From contig JAAEZG010000001.1 of the NCBI GenBank assembly GCA_018222985.1, positions 248,001 to 312,000 on the forward strand: a DNA stretch of 64,000 nucleotides, in the 5' to 3' direction. The stretch comes from Gammaproteobacteria bacterium (GTDB lineage Bacteria > Pseudomonadota > Gammaproteobacteria > Enterobacterales > Alteromonadaceae). Positions 4,676-34,385 of this stretch are shown here, piece after piece. The notes under the pieces were generated by a model. That model saw nothing but the letters and a program-made list of their open reading frames with translations, searched no databases and had not been told where the DNA came from. A program made the position numbers and the translations under genes. Every line of letters begins with the position of its first letter. Position 1 is the stretch's first letter.

Positions 4676-4690
4676 CTAGTGCAAAACGAG

Positions 4691-4718
4691 AAAAGCCCGC
4701 TCATTTGAGCGGGCTTTT
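4691..4718 (-). terminator. Intrinsic terminator after tRNA-Ser
   Basis: AAAAGCCCGCTC-ATTT-GAGCGGGCTTTT is a near-perfect inverted repeat flanked by A and T runs on both sides. It lies just downstream of tRNA-Ser on the minus strand and can work in both directions, so it also shields the tRNA from the repeat region. Confidence 0.9.
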
Positions 4719-4724
4719 GGAATA

Positions 4725-4817
<93 letters not shown>

Positions 4818-4943
4818 GCAGTCTTTATGGCTTGTTGCCTCAAGACGAAGCGAATGATAAAGAGCTAAAACTCCGTTGTAAAGTAAAAATTTAAACCATT
4901 TGGTTCGTTTGCTGTCATTTTATACAATCAGGGCAAATATTCG

Positions 4944-4973
4944 CTTGAAAGCATTGCCCTGAGTACCCATTTA
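4944..4973 (+). promoter_or_regulatory. Sigma-32 (heat-shock)-type promoter for yccA
   Basis: CTTGAAA at 4944-4950 and ACCCATTTA at 4965-4973, 14 bases apart, match the RpoH consensus CTTGAAA / CCCCATnTA with one mismatch. They lie about 65 bases upstream of the yccA start, with no good sigma-70 pair nearby. YccA acts on FtsH, the protease that degrades RpoH in E. coli, so such control makes sense. No transcription data support it. Confidence 0.55.
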
Positions 4974-5038
4974 TAGGGTACACTCTCGGTACACGACTTG
5001 TCGTTAGATAGGTTTTTGAGAACAACACGGAGAACTAC

Positions 5039-30808: not shown

Positions 30809-32488
30809 ATGAACGCAATTTTGCTGATGTTACTCGGTTTAGGTGCGATGTTTCTTGGTTATGTCATTTATTCTAAGTTTATTGCCGAGAAAATATTCAA
30901 ACTCGATCCTAACTTCCGAACCCCTGCTCACGAATTTGAAGACGGTGTCGACTTTGTTCCGACCAACAAATACGTGCTTTGGGGCCACCACTTCACCTCA
31001 GTTGCAGGTGCAGCTCCTATTATCGGTCCCGCTATTGCCGTTATTTGGGGCTGGGTTCCAGCTTTCTTATGGGTTGTATTCGGTACCATTTTCTTCGCTG
31101 GCGTGCATGATGCTGGCGCTATTTGGGCTTCCAACCGCAATAAAGCACGTTCTATTGGTGCTTTAACGGGTGATGTGGTCGGCAAGCGTTCACAAAGCTT
31201 GTTCATGATCGTGATCTTTTTAGTACTTCTCATGGTAAACGCGGTATTCGCCACCGCTATTTCAGGGCTACTGATTAATTTCCCAAGCTCTGTTGTACCC
31301 GTGTGGGGTGCCATTTTTGTGGCGTTGATTATCGGCCAAGTTATTTTCCGCAAATGGATGAACCTAGGTACGGTATCTATTCTTGGCGTTGTTGCTCTGT
31401 ATGCACTTATTTACGCAGGCCCTAGCTTCCCTATCACACTGCCTGAAACGGTGTTTGGTGTGTCGGACAATGCCCAGTGGATTCTTGTGCTATTTGCCTA
31501 TGCGGCGATCGCTTCGCTGTTACCCGTATGGATGCTATTACAACCGCGCGACTACATTAACGGCCTACAGTTGTTTATTGGTTTGTTCTTGGTGTACGGT
31601 GCGGTATTGATTAGTGGTCCAGAGCTGGTCGCTCCCGCCTTTAACACCAATGTCCCCGAGGGCACACCTAGCCTCGTTCCACTGCTCTTTGTTACCATTG
31701 CCTGCGGGGCAATTTCTGGCTTCCATGGCTTAGTCGCATCGGGCACTACCTCCAAGCAATTAGACAAAGAAACCGACCTGCGTTTTGTTGGTTATTTTGG
31801 TGCTATTGGTGAAGGTTCGCTGTCATTGGCAACCATTATTGCGGTCACGGCTGGTTTCGCCACCTTAGCCGATTGGCAAGCGGTGTACCATAGCTTTGGC
31901 CAAGGCGGTGTGACCGCATTTGTACAAGGCGGCGCCAATATTTTGCAAAATGGCTTGGGCCTTGATGTCGACTTAGCACAGACCTTGCTCACGGTTATGG
32001 CAGTATTGTTCGCGGGCACCACCATGGACACCGGCTTGCGTTTACAGCGCTATATTTTCCAAGAATGGGGCAACATCTATAACATTAAATGGATGGAAAA
32101 AGCCGCGCCTGCAACTCTGTTAGCCGTAGGTACCTGTTTATTACTAGCCTTTGGTGCTGGCGGCGCTGATGGTTCGGGCGGCTTATTAATTTGGCCGTTA
32201 TTTGGTACCACCAACCAGTTGCTAGCAGGCTTAACGTTGCTGGTTATTACCACCATGCTAGTGAAATTAGGGCGGCCTATGTACGTAACCCTAATTCCGT
32301 TGCTGTTCTTGTTAGTCATGACTATTTACGCCCTACTTATTCAATTAATGGGCTTTTATCATAAGTCAGACTGGTTCTTGTTTAGCCTAGACCTCGTTGT
32401 CCTTATTGCGGCCATTTGGATTGCCCTTGAGTCAGCAGGTGTATTGACGCGTTTAGTGCGCGAAAATAAAGCAACCAAGGCCAGCTAA
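30809..32488 (+). CDS. CstA-type carbon starvation permease (short form)
   Basis: 559-residue membrane protein with about 14-16 hydrophobic helices. The CstA family core is clear: YVLWGHHFTSVAGAAPIIGP, then FWVVFGTIFFAGVHDAGA, FHGLVASGTTSKQL and LFGTTNQLLAGL. In E. coli, CstA and BtsT take up pyruvate, and CstA also peptides. This form is about 140 residues shorter than E. coli CstA. It heads a tight cassette: the CC protein starts 2 bases after its stop, and an ArsA-type ATPase follows. AAAAAGGTAATACC gives the ribosome site. The substrate is not readable; pyruvate or another small organic acid is the best guess. Confidence 0.88.
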   Translation: MNAILLMLLGLGAMFLGYVIYSKFIAEKIFKLDPNFRTPAHEFEDGVDFVPTNKYVLWGHHFTSVAGAAPIIGPAIAVIWGWVPAFLWVVFGTIFFAGVHDAGAIWASNRNKARSIGALTGDVVGKRSQSLFMIVIFLVLLMVNAVFATAISGLLINFPSSVVPVWGAIFVALIIGQVIFRKWMNLGTVSILGVVALYALIYAGPSFPITLPETVFGVSDNAQWILVLFAYAAIASLLPVWMLLQPRDYINGLQLFIGLFLVYGAVLISGPELVAPAFNTNVPEGTPSLVPLLFVTIACGAISGFHGLVASGTTSKQLDKETDLRFVGYFGAIGEGSLSLATIIAVTAGFATLADWQAVYHSFGQGGVTAFVQGGANILQNGLGLDVDLAQTLLTVMAVLFAGTTMDTGLRLQRYIFQEWGNIYNIKWMEKAAPATLLAVGTCLLLAFGAGGADGSGGLLIWPLFGTTNQLLAGLTLLVITTMLVKLGRPMYVTLIPLLFLLVMTIYALLIQLMGFYHKSDWFLFSLDLVVLIAAIWIALESAGVLTRLVRENKATKAS

Positions 32489-32490
32489 TC

Positions 32491-32763
32491 ATGAAAATAC
32501 GTGCCATTATCGACTGGATAAAAAACGCCAACGCCTATGCAACAGAGGTGTATAACGCGCCATACCGGTCGGCAATTGCACGGGCCAAACGGGACGAGGA
32601 CGATTTGTTCATGATGTTAGTATTTTCTGAACTCATGGGCGTTCCGAATCCCGCCTCTTATTACACGCTCGAGCTACAGCCATTGTTGCTTGAGCGTTTT
32701 CACCAATGGCACCTGCGAATGGGCATGGAGCACTCTCCGCTTGATGGCTTTCGTTGTTGCTAA
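32491..32763 (+). CDS. Small protein with C-terminal Cys-Cys, partner of the CstA-type permease
   Basis: 90-residue soluble protein ending in Phe-Arg-Cys-Cys (Cys89-Cys90), the only Cys in it. I believe it belongs to the small family called cory-CC-star, named for this end, but I cannot check. E. coli YbdD and YjiX, the small partners of the CstA and BtsT pyruvate transporters, also end in Arg-Cys-Cys, and YbdD-type proteins are needed for transport. By analogy this protein may gate or assemble the permease. The rest is helical (ARAKRDEDDLFMMLVFSELM). It begins 2 bases after the permease stop and ends 16 bases before the ATPase. Confidence 0.8.
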   Translation: MKIRAIIDWIKNANAYATEVYNAPYRSAIARAKRDEDDLFMMLVFSELMGVPNPASYYTLELQPLLLERFHQWHLRMGMEHSPLDGFRCC

Positions 32764-32779
32764 GCGCTAAGGTGCTTGA

Positions 32780-33775
32780 ATGCTTTGTGTAGATGATAAA
32801 CAAATTGTATTTGTTGGCGGCAAAGGTGGCGTGGGTAAAACAACCATTTCATCAGCACTTGCGCTTCAGCAAGCAGAACGCGGCCGCAGGGTTTTGCTTA
32901 TTTCTACCGACCCAGCGCACAGCCTCGCTGACGCTTTTGACATGCCTATTGGTGACAGCATTACGCCAATGACAGAGCGCGTTGATGCACTTGAAATTGA
33001 CCCTGACGCTGAAGTTGAAGCACACATTGCCCGTGTGATGAAAACCATGAAGCGCTATAGCAAGCCCGACATGTACCCAGAAATAGAGCGACAAATGCGT
33101 TTAACTCAACAGTCGCCCGGTGCACAAGAAGCCGCACTATTGGAACGAATAGCTCGGCTGATTGATGAAAAACCAGCGGAGTATGACCTTATTATTTTCG
33201 ACACAGCGCCAACTGGGCACACGCTGCGCTTATTAACGCTCCCCGAAGCCATGGCGGCTTGGACGCAAGGCTTATTAAAACAAACTGAACGCAGTAAAAA
33301 GCTTGAAGGTGTGCTTGAGCACCTAAGCCCTAAAGCCGGCAAAGACATCGCCAACCCTATGGCTGACCCTAAACAACATGAATCCGCTGAGCTTGATGAT
33401 CGTACCACCGAAATTAGTGAGACCCTACTGCGTCGTCAACGTCTATTTCATCGCACGCGGCATGTGCTGACAGATTCGAGCAAAACGGCATTAATTTTTG
33501 TGCTAACCCCAGAAAAATTACCTATTTTGGAAACCGCCCGCGCGGTTACAGCCTTGCGACAAGAAAAGCTTCCCATTGCGGGGTTAGTGATTAACCGGAA
33601 CTTGCCTGAGCAGGCAGACGGAGAGTTTTTTGCCAAACGACGTGCCCAAGAAGCCGTCTATCGTGATGATATTGAACAAGAGTTTCAAGACCTTCAACGG
33701 GTTTACTTACCTTTATTCCCCACTGATTTACATGGCCTTGAAGCGCTGAGGGACATTGCAGAACAACTGCCGTAG
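32780..33775 (+). CDS. ArsA/Get3 (TRC40) family ATPase
   Basis: 331-residue deviant-Walker ATPase. The P loop is GGKGGVGKTT (13-22) with the signature Lys, switch I is STDPAHSLADAF (42-53), switch II is DTAPTGHTLRLL (141-152), and the A loop is LPLFPTDLHGLEAL near the end. These match Get3/ArsA, which dimerise on ATP binding. It has a single Cys (Cys3), so it lacks both the three-Cys arsenite site of ArsA and the CxxC zinc pair of Get3. No ars genes are near. It is the third gene of the CstA/CC-protein cassette, so I infer a role in handling or energising that permease. Confidence 0.85.
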   Translation: MLCVDDKQIVFVGGKGGVGKTTISSALALQQAERGRRVLLISTDPAHSLADAFDMPIGDSITPMTERVDALEIDPDAEVEAHIARVMKTMKRYSKPDMYPEIERQMRLTQQSPGAQEAALLERIARLIDEKPAEYDLIIFDTAPTGHTLRLLTLPEAMAAWTQGLLKQTERSKKLEGVLEHLSPKAGKDIANPMADPKQHESAELDDRTTEISETLLRRQRLFHRTRHVLTDSSKTALIFVLTPEKLPILETARAVTALRQEKLPIAGLVINRNLPEQADGEFFAKRRAQEAVYRDDIEQEFQDLQRVYLPLFPTDLHGLEALRDIAEQLP

Positions 33776-33794: not shown

Positions 33795-34385
33795 CTAAAA
33801 AAGCAGATACACTAGGTAAACCGAGAGTGCAGCAACTAGCACAACCCAGCCGGCTTTGCGGTTGTATTGTTGCCACCAGCGCAGCACGGCTTCACCAAAC
33901 CAATAAACCAATAACGCCAGTCCGTAGTAACGAATACCGCGGGCAATAACAGCCGCCAGCATAAATAATCCATACGGGTATTCGGCACTGCCAGCACTGA
34001 GCATTCCTACTTGAAACGGAATGGGCGAAATTCCAACCAACAACAGTGTGGCAAAACCATGCTCTGCAAAGCGTGCCGTGAAGCTTTCAAAGGCGTCATG
34101 GTAACCAAGCCACGTGAGTATCGCGTCACCAATATCTTCAAAAAACCACAAGCCAATACCATAGCCGACACTGGCCCCAAGCAGGCAGCCAAACAAGGTT
34201 ACCGTGGCAATAGACCAAAGCCGATCACGTTGGTGCATGAGCAAGGGTATGAGAATAAGCTCTAGGGGGATTGGAATGATCAGCGACTCTAAAAATGACG
34301 CGATAAAAATAGCGAGCAATACATAATTAGAGTCGGCAAAACGCGCTAACCAGCGGTCAGCGCGCTTATTATTAGTTTGCTGCAC
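33795..34385 (-). CDS. YqaA/DedA-like inner-membrane protein (VTT domain)
   Basis: 196 residues with about five hydrophobic segments (20-48, 58-80, 110-130, 140-160, 172-195). The VTT/SNARE-associated pattern is visible: SFLESLIIPIPLELILIPLL near the N-terminus, a GCLLGASVGYGIGLWF helix, and SPIPFQVGMLSAGS with the re-entrant Pro-rich loop. YqaA proteins are a DedA subgroup; DedA proteins have been tied to undecaprenyl-phosphate or phospholipid flipping, but YqaA itself is not well defined. It converges on the ArsA-type ATPase gene with 19 bases between. The upstream M28 peptidase is on the same strand. Confidence 0.85.
   Translation of the reverse strand: MQQTNNKRADRWLARFADSNYVLLAIFIASFLESLIIPIPLELILIPLLMHQRDRLWSIATVTLFGCLLGASVGYGIGLWFFEDIGDAILTWLGYHDAFESFTARFAEHGFATLLLVGISPIPFQVGMLSAGSAEYPYGLFMLAAVIARGIRYYGLALLVYWFGEAVLRWWQQYNRKAGWVVLVAALSVYLVYLLF

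Follow-up and report, generated by a model that had tools for sequence, protein, structure and literature searches.

Operons that combine a CstA-family permease with an ArsA-type ATPase were described by Castillo and Saier (2010; PMC2963123). They reported cstA-cstX-arsA operons, counted 26 CstA-ArsA associations (24 of them with CstX) and found that the ATPases are single-domain proteins of ~330 amino acids (aa) and that the CstA, CstX and ArsA trees coevolve. In their proposal the ATPase energises CstA through CstX, which would link ATP hydrolysis to transport. They found no arsenic genes in the cst operons. We analyzed a cassette of this kind in a 64,000 bp stretch ("the window") of contig JAAEZG010000001.1, from a genome assigned to the Alteromonadaceae (GCA_018222985.1). 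The cassette encodes a CstA-family permease, a small protein ending in Cys-Cys (the "CC protein") and an ATPase of the ArsA/Get3 fold.

The other close comparison is with E. coli, where the CstA-type carriers are pyruvate importers and the need for a tiny CC-ended protein was shown in 2018 (PMC5847655). YbdD is required for pyruvate uptake by CstA; uptake was 20% of wild type after ybdD deletion and 13% after cstA deletion (PMC5847655). For BtsT, the E. coli gene order is btsT-yjiX-yjiA. YjiA binds zinc most favourably (PMC7895991), and COG0523 proteins, which have a CXCC motif, are proposed metal chaperones (PMC2770081). In some Epsilonproteobacteria, DUF466 proteins (the YbdD family) end in Cys-Sec, which the authors interpret as pointing to redox activity (PMC4607533; also PMC13188914).

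The cassette in the window consists of the following features:

30809..32488, plus strand: CstA-family permease, short form, 559 aa (open reading frame (ORF) and Pfam match, PF02554)
32491..32763, plus strand: cory-CC-star protein (NF041419), 90 aa, C-terminus ...GFRCC (ORF, NCBIfam match and helical model)
32698..32760, plus strand: codons for residues F70 to C90, the conserved C-terminal stretch (alignment, n = 49)
32780..33775, plus strand: single-domain ATPase of the ArsA/Get3 fold, 331 aa, lacking the cysteines of the arsenite site and of the zinc pair (ORF and family models)

The permease belongs to the CstA family (TC 2.A.114; PF02554, 5.5e-136, 455 bits against a cut-off of 27). The CC protein is a member of the "cory-CC-star" equivalog NF041419 (4e-40, 135.7 bits against a cut-off of 80) and ends in RCC. 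With a cstA gene, a gene of ~90 codons, a single-domain arsA homologue and no ars gene among the four nearest neighbors searched with Pfam, the window fits the cstA-cstX-arsA operon type. The operons of 2010 likewise have three genes and a single-domain ATPase of ~330 aa without the ArsA cysteines, and cluster 18 of that study includes two Idiomarina ATPases, from I. loihiensis L2TR and I. baltica OS145 (PMC2963123). The loci read here include cassettes of I. loihiensis (L009) and of I. baltica OS145 (L021). Judging by size and place, CstX is probably cory-CC-star. The original prediction regarded an ATPase devoted to a nutrient permease as new; the cassette and the energising idea have in fact been known since 2010 (PMC2963123). 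What is added here is the invariant CC end together with two histidines, the absence of a predicted membrane helix, the parallel with YjiX-YjiA, and the pairing of CC protein and ATPase apart from CstA. Neither that parallel nor the name cory-CC-star was found in print in one open-access library (titles, abstract starts and passages). We favor, at a probability of about 40%, a reading in which the ATPase matures or charges the CC protein, which would then activate CstA, over insertion or direct energising of the permease.

The three genes form a conserved operon

The cassette goes beyond a chance neighborhood and is a conserved operon. The ORFs confirmed the predicted tight plus-strand arrangement and RCC end, with 2 bases between the CstA and CC genes and 16 between the CC and ATPase genes. 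A scan of genome contigs with the CC protein gave 264 relatives, of which we read the best 80 loci and left out the weaker 184. All 80 keep the order CstA-CC-ATPase on a single strand, in Idiomarina, Halomonas, Rheinheimera, Marinomonas, Oceanimonas, an acidobacterial metagenome-assembled genome and others. Measured from the stop codon of the CC gene, the longest ATPase frame starts at a distance of -58 to 428 bases (median 24). The CC gene also occurs on six plasmid records, and the three that were fetched, from Paracoccus, Pseudochrobactrum (both Alphaproteobacteria) and Cytobacillus (Bacillota), all carry the cassette.

We then counted the families in one even draw of 299 Pseudomonadota genomes. 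CstA (PF02554) was detected in 135, YbdD/YjiX (PF04328) in 54 and NF041419 in 7. CstA was present in 7/7 cory genomes and 54/54 PF04328 genomes, and no genome had both kinds of CC protein (lists compared by eye). An ATPase profile (A3), built with five of the seven census cory rows or their kin, had as its seven best genomes exactly the seven cory genomes (227-534 bits for the best stretch, adjoining the CC gene). At 1e-20 the profile also matched 10 more genomes, none with a score above 153 bits. Nine of these have frames of 579-918 aa with two P-loops, which is the ArsA type, and no CC or CstA gene was found in their flanks of about 1.5 kb. The original prediction asked whether the ATPase co-occurs with this permease more than with ars or get genes; across the 299 genomes its clade goes with CC and CstA, apart from two-domain ArsA. 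PF04328 was detected in 0/26 further cory sources (23 genomes from the 80 loci and three plasmid records); counting the seven census genomes and these 23, YbdD is absent from 30/30 cory genomes. In the same draw, 74 of the 135 genomes with CstA lack both CC families.

The ATPase is a single-domain relative of ArsA and Get3

The ATPase matched PF02374 (ArsA_ATPase) at 2.2e-76 and TIGR00345 (GET3/arsA/TRC40) at 1.2e-81, and its motifs are intact (P-loop GGKGGVGKTT, STDPAHS and DTAPTGHTLR). Its sole Cys is Cys3. The C-x-x-C of archaeal Get3 (3zq6, DCEFC) aligns to DGEFF, and the protein therefore lacks the Get3/TRC40 zinc pair. It also falls outside ArsA, which has two ATPase domains and three activation cysteines: it has one P-loop domain in 331 aa, Cys3 only, and 156.6 bits to TIGR04291 against a cut-off of 650. 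The predicted full switch set, with a single Cys and neither an arsenite site nor a zinc pair, was borne out in this way. The best Protein Data Bank (PDB) match of the window ATPase by phmmer was archaeal 3zq6, whereas the ATPase family profile placed 5zme (algal ArsA1) and 1f48 (ArsA of E. coli) at the top.

The ATPase tree has 68 rows, among them one certain Get3 and one very long outlier (L154) whose place is unsure. Its 20 ArsA and Get3-like rows fall on one side with a support of 94, just under the 95 line. Going by sequence, the cassette ATPases appear to form a branch of single-domain proteins distinct from arsenite ArsA and from the one archaeal Get3. They share with Get3/TRC40 the fold family, the switch motifs and the single domain, but lack the CxxC zinc pair, have an insert that looks more polar and branch separately from the one certain Get3 (support 94). 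The ArsA-ArsB-ArsD arsenite pump resembles the cassette in combining this ATPase fold with a small vicinal-cysteine helper and a membrane carrier. The cassette differs from it in the single ATPase domain, the lack of conserved Cys, the families of carrier and helper, and the reported absence of arsenic genes from such operons (PMC2963123). A haloarchaeal ATPase is encoded on a plasmid (L095) where the 6.9 kb read contain neither an annotated CC protein nor an annotated CstA.

The CC protein and its parallel with YbdD and YjiX

The C-terminal [RK]CC is present in 80/80 CC proteins, and in more distant cory forms the residue preceding CC varies. Among 49 aligned CC proteins, the invariant positions are D38, F40, G50, N53, P54, P64, F70, H71, W73, H74, R76, G78, P83, C89 and C90. 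No Pfam match to the CC protein was found at E up to 1. Its structure model, with a predicted local distance difference test (pLDDT) score of 88, has a long helix (3-49), a turn, helices 54-58 and 60-76, and an extended tail; a fold search with the cory model against the PDB gave five matches, none at E up to 0.001. No membrane segment is predicted, since none of 46 members has a 19-residue stretch above 1.6 on the Kyte-Doolittle scale (maximum in the window protein, 1.02), whereas CstX was labelled as having a single transmembrane segment in 2010 (archaeal cluster 14; PMC2963123). Haloferax volcanii, used as a control genome, gave an NF041419 match below the cut-off, pointing to an archaeal form. 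In the Cytobacillus spongiae plasmid locus L092, a gene annotated as "hypothetical protein" (95 aa, 4690-4977) lies between the CstA and CC genes.

E. coli CstA-YbdD and BtsT-YjiX-YjiA resemble the cassette in that a CstA-family permease is followed by a small protein with an invariant Cys-Cys end, and in the BtsT type the third gene also encodes a P-loop NTPase. They differ in that their CC proteins have no detectable homology to cory-CC-star, the NTPase is a COG0523-type GTPase and not an ArsA/Get3-fold ATPase, and the permeases are longer (701 and 716 aa for E. coli CstA and BtsT, 559 aa in the cassette). The CC protein gave no match to PF04328 or to NF033934 (KCU-star) at E up to 1. The KCU-star selenoprotein model was matched by 25/25 YbdD-type proteins at E up to 0.1 (E. 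coli YbdD, 70 bits against a cut-off of 85). We read 30 PF04328 loci (of 54 genomes matched) with 1.5 kb flanks. CstA/BtsT adjoins the YbdD-type gene in 29, the remaining one being at a contig edge, and an ArsA-type ATPase is found in none. Conversely, YjiA is found in 0 of 20 cory loci from a further search and in 0 of the 80 within up to 10 kb, and the ATPase is in 20/20. Cory-CC-star works like YbdD/YjiX to the extent that it adjoins a CstA-family permease and has the invariant Cys-Cys end.

The CC protein and the ATPase stay together where CstA lies elsewhere

The 20 cory loci came from a genome search and from plasmids, and two of them repeat the window and locus L078. The ATPase adjoins the CC gene in all 20, and CstA lies upstream in 14; the loci without upstream CstA have a distant cory form and belong to the class of L078's genome. 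In that class, cory occurs in 13 of 60 genomes, in 12 of them above the family cut-off, and the CC-ATPase pair is intact in all 13. CstA is upstream in four of these and absent from the 6.5-16 kb read in seven, whereas the 2010 survey reports that CstX never occurs in an operon without CstA (PMC2963123). In one more (G361), CstA starts divergently at the contig end. In G332 (L169, 7468-7731), a CstA fragment covering only residues 30-117 of E. coli CstA is divergent to the pair, and two full CstA genes lie elsewhere in the genome.

Somewhere in the genome, CstA is present in 13/13 cory genomes of this class, against 38/47 of the draw without cory. The long CstA type occurs in 8/9 genomes with distant cory by a score >600 bits, or 9/9 counting the G361 fragments, and in 10/51 others (Fisher 6e-6 for 9/9, not kinship-corrected).

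The reverse case, a permease without the helper, appears in the CstA tree (85 rows, quick method, SH-like approximate likelihood ratio test (SH-aLRT) support only). All 28 cory-linked permeases fall within one clade of 39. The 11 others in this clade have no adjoining CC gene: one is the second CstA of Natronospirillum, and 10 come from nine genomes without an NF041419 match. Six of these nine genomes may be incomplete; the other three, G015, G224 and G234, have a listed completeness of 100%. A CstA of this kind can thus exist without helper and ATPase; helpers without CstA were not seen in the genomes searched. Because such close CstA relatives have neither CC protein nor ATPase, a general need of CstA for the ATPase in folding or insertion is disfavored. 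A second CstA directly follows the ATPase in two Natronospirillum genomes (L031, 11433-13106; L043, 7994-9670) and in G371 (L270, 4366-6399), where one CC-ATPase pair thus stands between two permeases.

Proposed function and alternative explanations

By analogy with other CstA proteins, the cassette is probably a three-part nutrient-uptake module for pyruvate or small peptides. In the mechanism we favor, CstA would be the carrier. The CC protein would be a soluble helical accessory, most likely docking on the cytoplasmic face of CstA, that is needed for transport or tunes it, as YbdD does for E. coli CstA. The ATPase, probably a homodimer of the Get3/ArsA fold, would act on the CC protein and not directly on the permease. 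Its ATP-driven cycle of opening and closing may load, reduce or release the CC end, where the invariant H71 and H74 are a plausible metal or redox site, and the charged CC protein would switch CstA on. The same logic may hold for BtsT-YjiX-YjiA, in which the third gene encodes a zinc-preferring GTPase of the metallochaperone type and some YjiX relatives end in Cys-Sec.

A wider idea is possible, if doubtful: two unrelated CC- (or Cys-Sec-) ended proteins may have been recruited independently to CstA permeases, each with its own P-loop NTPase that charges the end with metal or electrons. These would be the COG0523 GTPase YjiA and the ArsA/Get3-fold ATPase, both of the SIMIBI class. If true, nutrient uptake would be gated by a nucleotide-driven thiol-charging cycle, with the YbdD selenoproteins as its most reactive form. 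The cassette itself offers another solution to the same need, apparently unrelated to the first, in which an ATPase stands where YjiA is often found; the Cys-Cys end that both share therefore becomes the thing to test. It also brings closer a function for those ATPases of the Get3/ArsA fold whose branch resembles neither arsenic nor tail-anchor machinery.

Several observations weigh against charging of the CC protein by the ATPase. The longest ATPase frame has no Cys in 39 of the 80 relatives and no Cys position is common to all 80, and an ATPase without conserved Cys cannot act on its own as a thiol metallochaperone of the YjiA kind (CXCC; PMC2770081). Only 14 of the 30 PF04328 loci have a YjiA-type GTPase within 1.5 kb, and yjiA is also missing next to cstA-ybdD in E. 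coli. All cory members read have the CC end, in a set for which no search was aimed at Sec forms. The CstA positions that follow CC presence (20 columns) are mostly conservative swaps in one CC-less group and form no clear surface. Castillo and Saier took the same operon as energising, with coevolving trees (PMC2963123). The parallel with YbdD may be analogy only, because no homology was detected and the predicted folds differ: hhalign gave a probability of 2% over 10 columns, and the YbdD-type model has helices 2-15, 21-31 and 40-52 (pLDDT only 71). The original suggestion that the CC protein is a distant functional match of YbdD is supported by the place after CstA, the invariant CC end and the separation from YbdD in 30/30 genomes, but not by demonstrable homology. 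The mutual absence of the two CC types gave P = 0.24 (exact test) in the 299 genomes alone and P = 0.003 with the 23 added, neither kinship-corrected, and the lack of YbdD in cory genomes may partly reflect ancestry.

The proposal of 2010, in which CstA and the ATPase form an ATP-driven porter with the CC protein as coupling linker, as ArsA works for ArsB with ArsD as helper, seems to us rather unlikely. CstA is found both with and without the ATPase, just as ArsB occurs with and without its own. The published coevolution of CstA, CstX and ArsA in the same operon speaks for this proposal, as does ArsD, a protein with vicinal Cys pairs (PMC2440759) that passes metalloid on to ArsA (PMC2963123). 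However, E. coli BtsT, which has no ArsA-type gene alongside, carries the annotation pyruvate:H(+) symporter, and the ArsA activation cysteines are missing from the cassette ATPase. The CC-ATPase pair also stands without adjoining CstA in 7/13 genomes of one class, and therefore a soluble helper fits better than a fixed pump complex, although the latter could still accommodate this. A toxic thiol-reactive or metalloid compound handled by the CC end and the ATPase, with CstA as its exit or entry, would account for the likeness to ArsA/ArsD and the vicinal Cys end. Such detoxification is highly improbable given that the arsenite cysteines are missing, that the annotation of the three plasmid loci shows no ars gene (other loci not searched by model) and that the published survey has no arsenic genes in cst operons (PMC2963123).

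Delivery of CstA or the CC protein to the membrane by a bacterial GET-like ATPase is improbable. The original prediction had the ATPase chaperoning or inserting the permease, and the match to TIGR00345, the phmmer match to 3zq6 and the intact DTAP and switch motifs agree with a targeting role. The missing CxxC is not decisive against it, because Get3d lacks CxxC yet binds tail-anchored proteins (PMC10248533). The idea fared poorly on other points. In a sequence comparison limited to three other stretches, large hydrophobic residues make up 0.24 of the insert core in the window ATPase; the fraction is 0.33 for 3zq6, and algal ArsA1 has 0.33 in one half and 0.29 in the other. The CC protein has no predicted membrane segment (0/46), and CstA is polytopic, not tail-anchored, with close relatives that manage without CC protein and ATPase.

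Genomic context of the cassette

The operon most likely consists of just the three cassette genes, because the nearest gene on either side is on the minus strand. Upstream is an ABC transporter gene. Downstream, a minus-strand gene (33795-34385, 196 aa), convergent with the ATPase gene, is followed by an M28 peptidase gene; its product is apparently rich in hydrophobic stretches and had no Pfam match at 1e-10. The best candidate for a CRP-like site upstream of CstA has 4 mismatches of 10. We claim neither promoter nor terminator, because sigma-70-like promoters numbered 0 against 4.2 in shuffles and terminator-like sites 6 against 4.5. Comparison with PHROGs gave a sole match, at 0.077. The genome that holds the window is close to Pseudidiomarina, the nearest CC proteins having 98% identity to that of the window.

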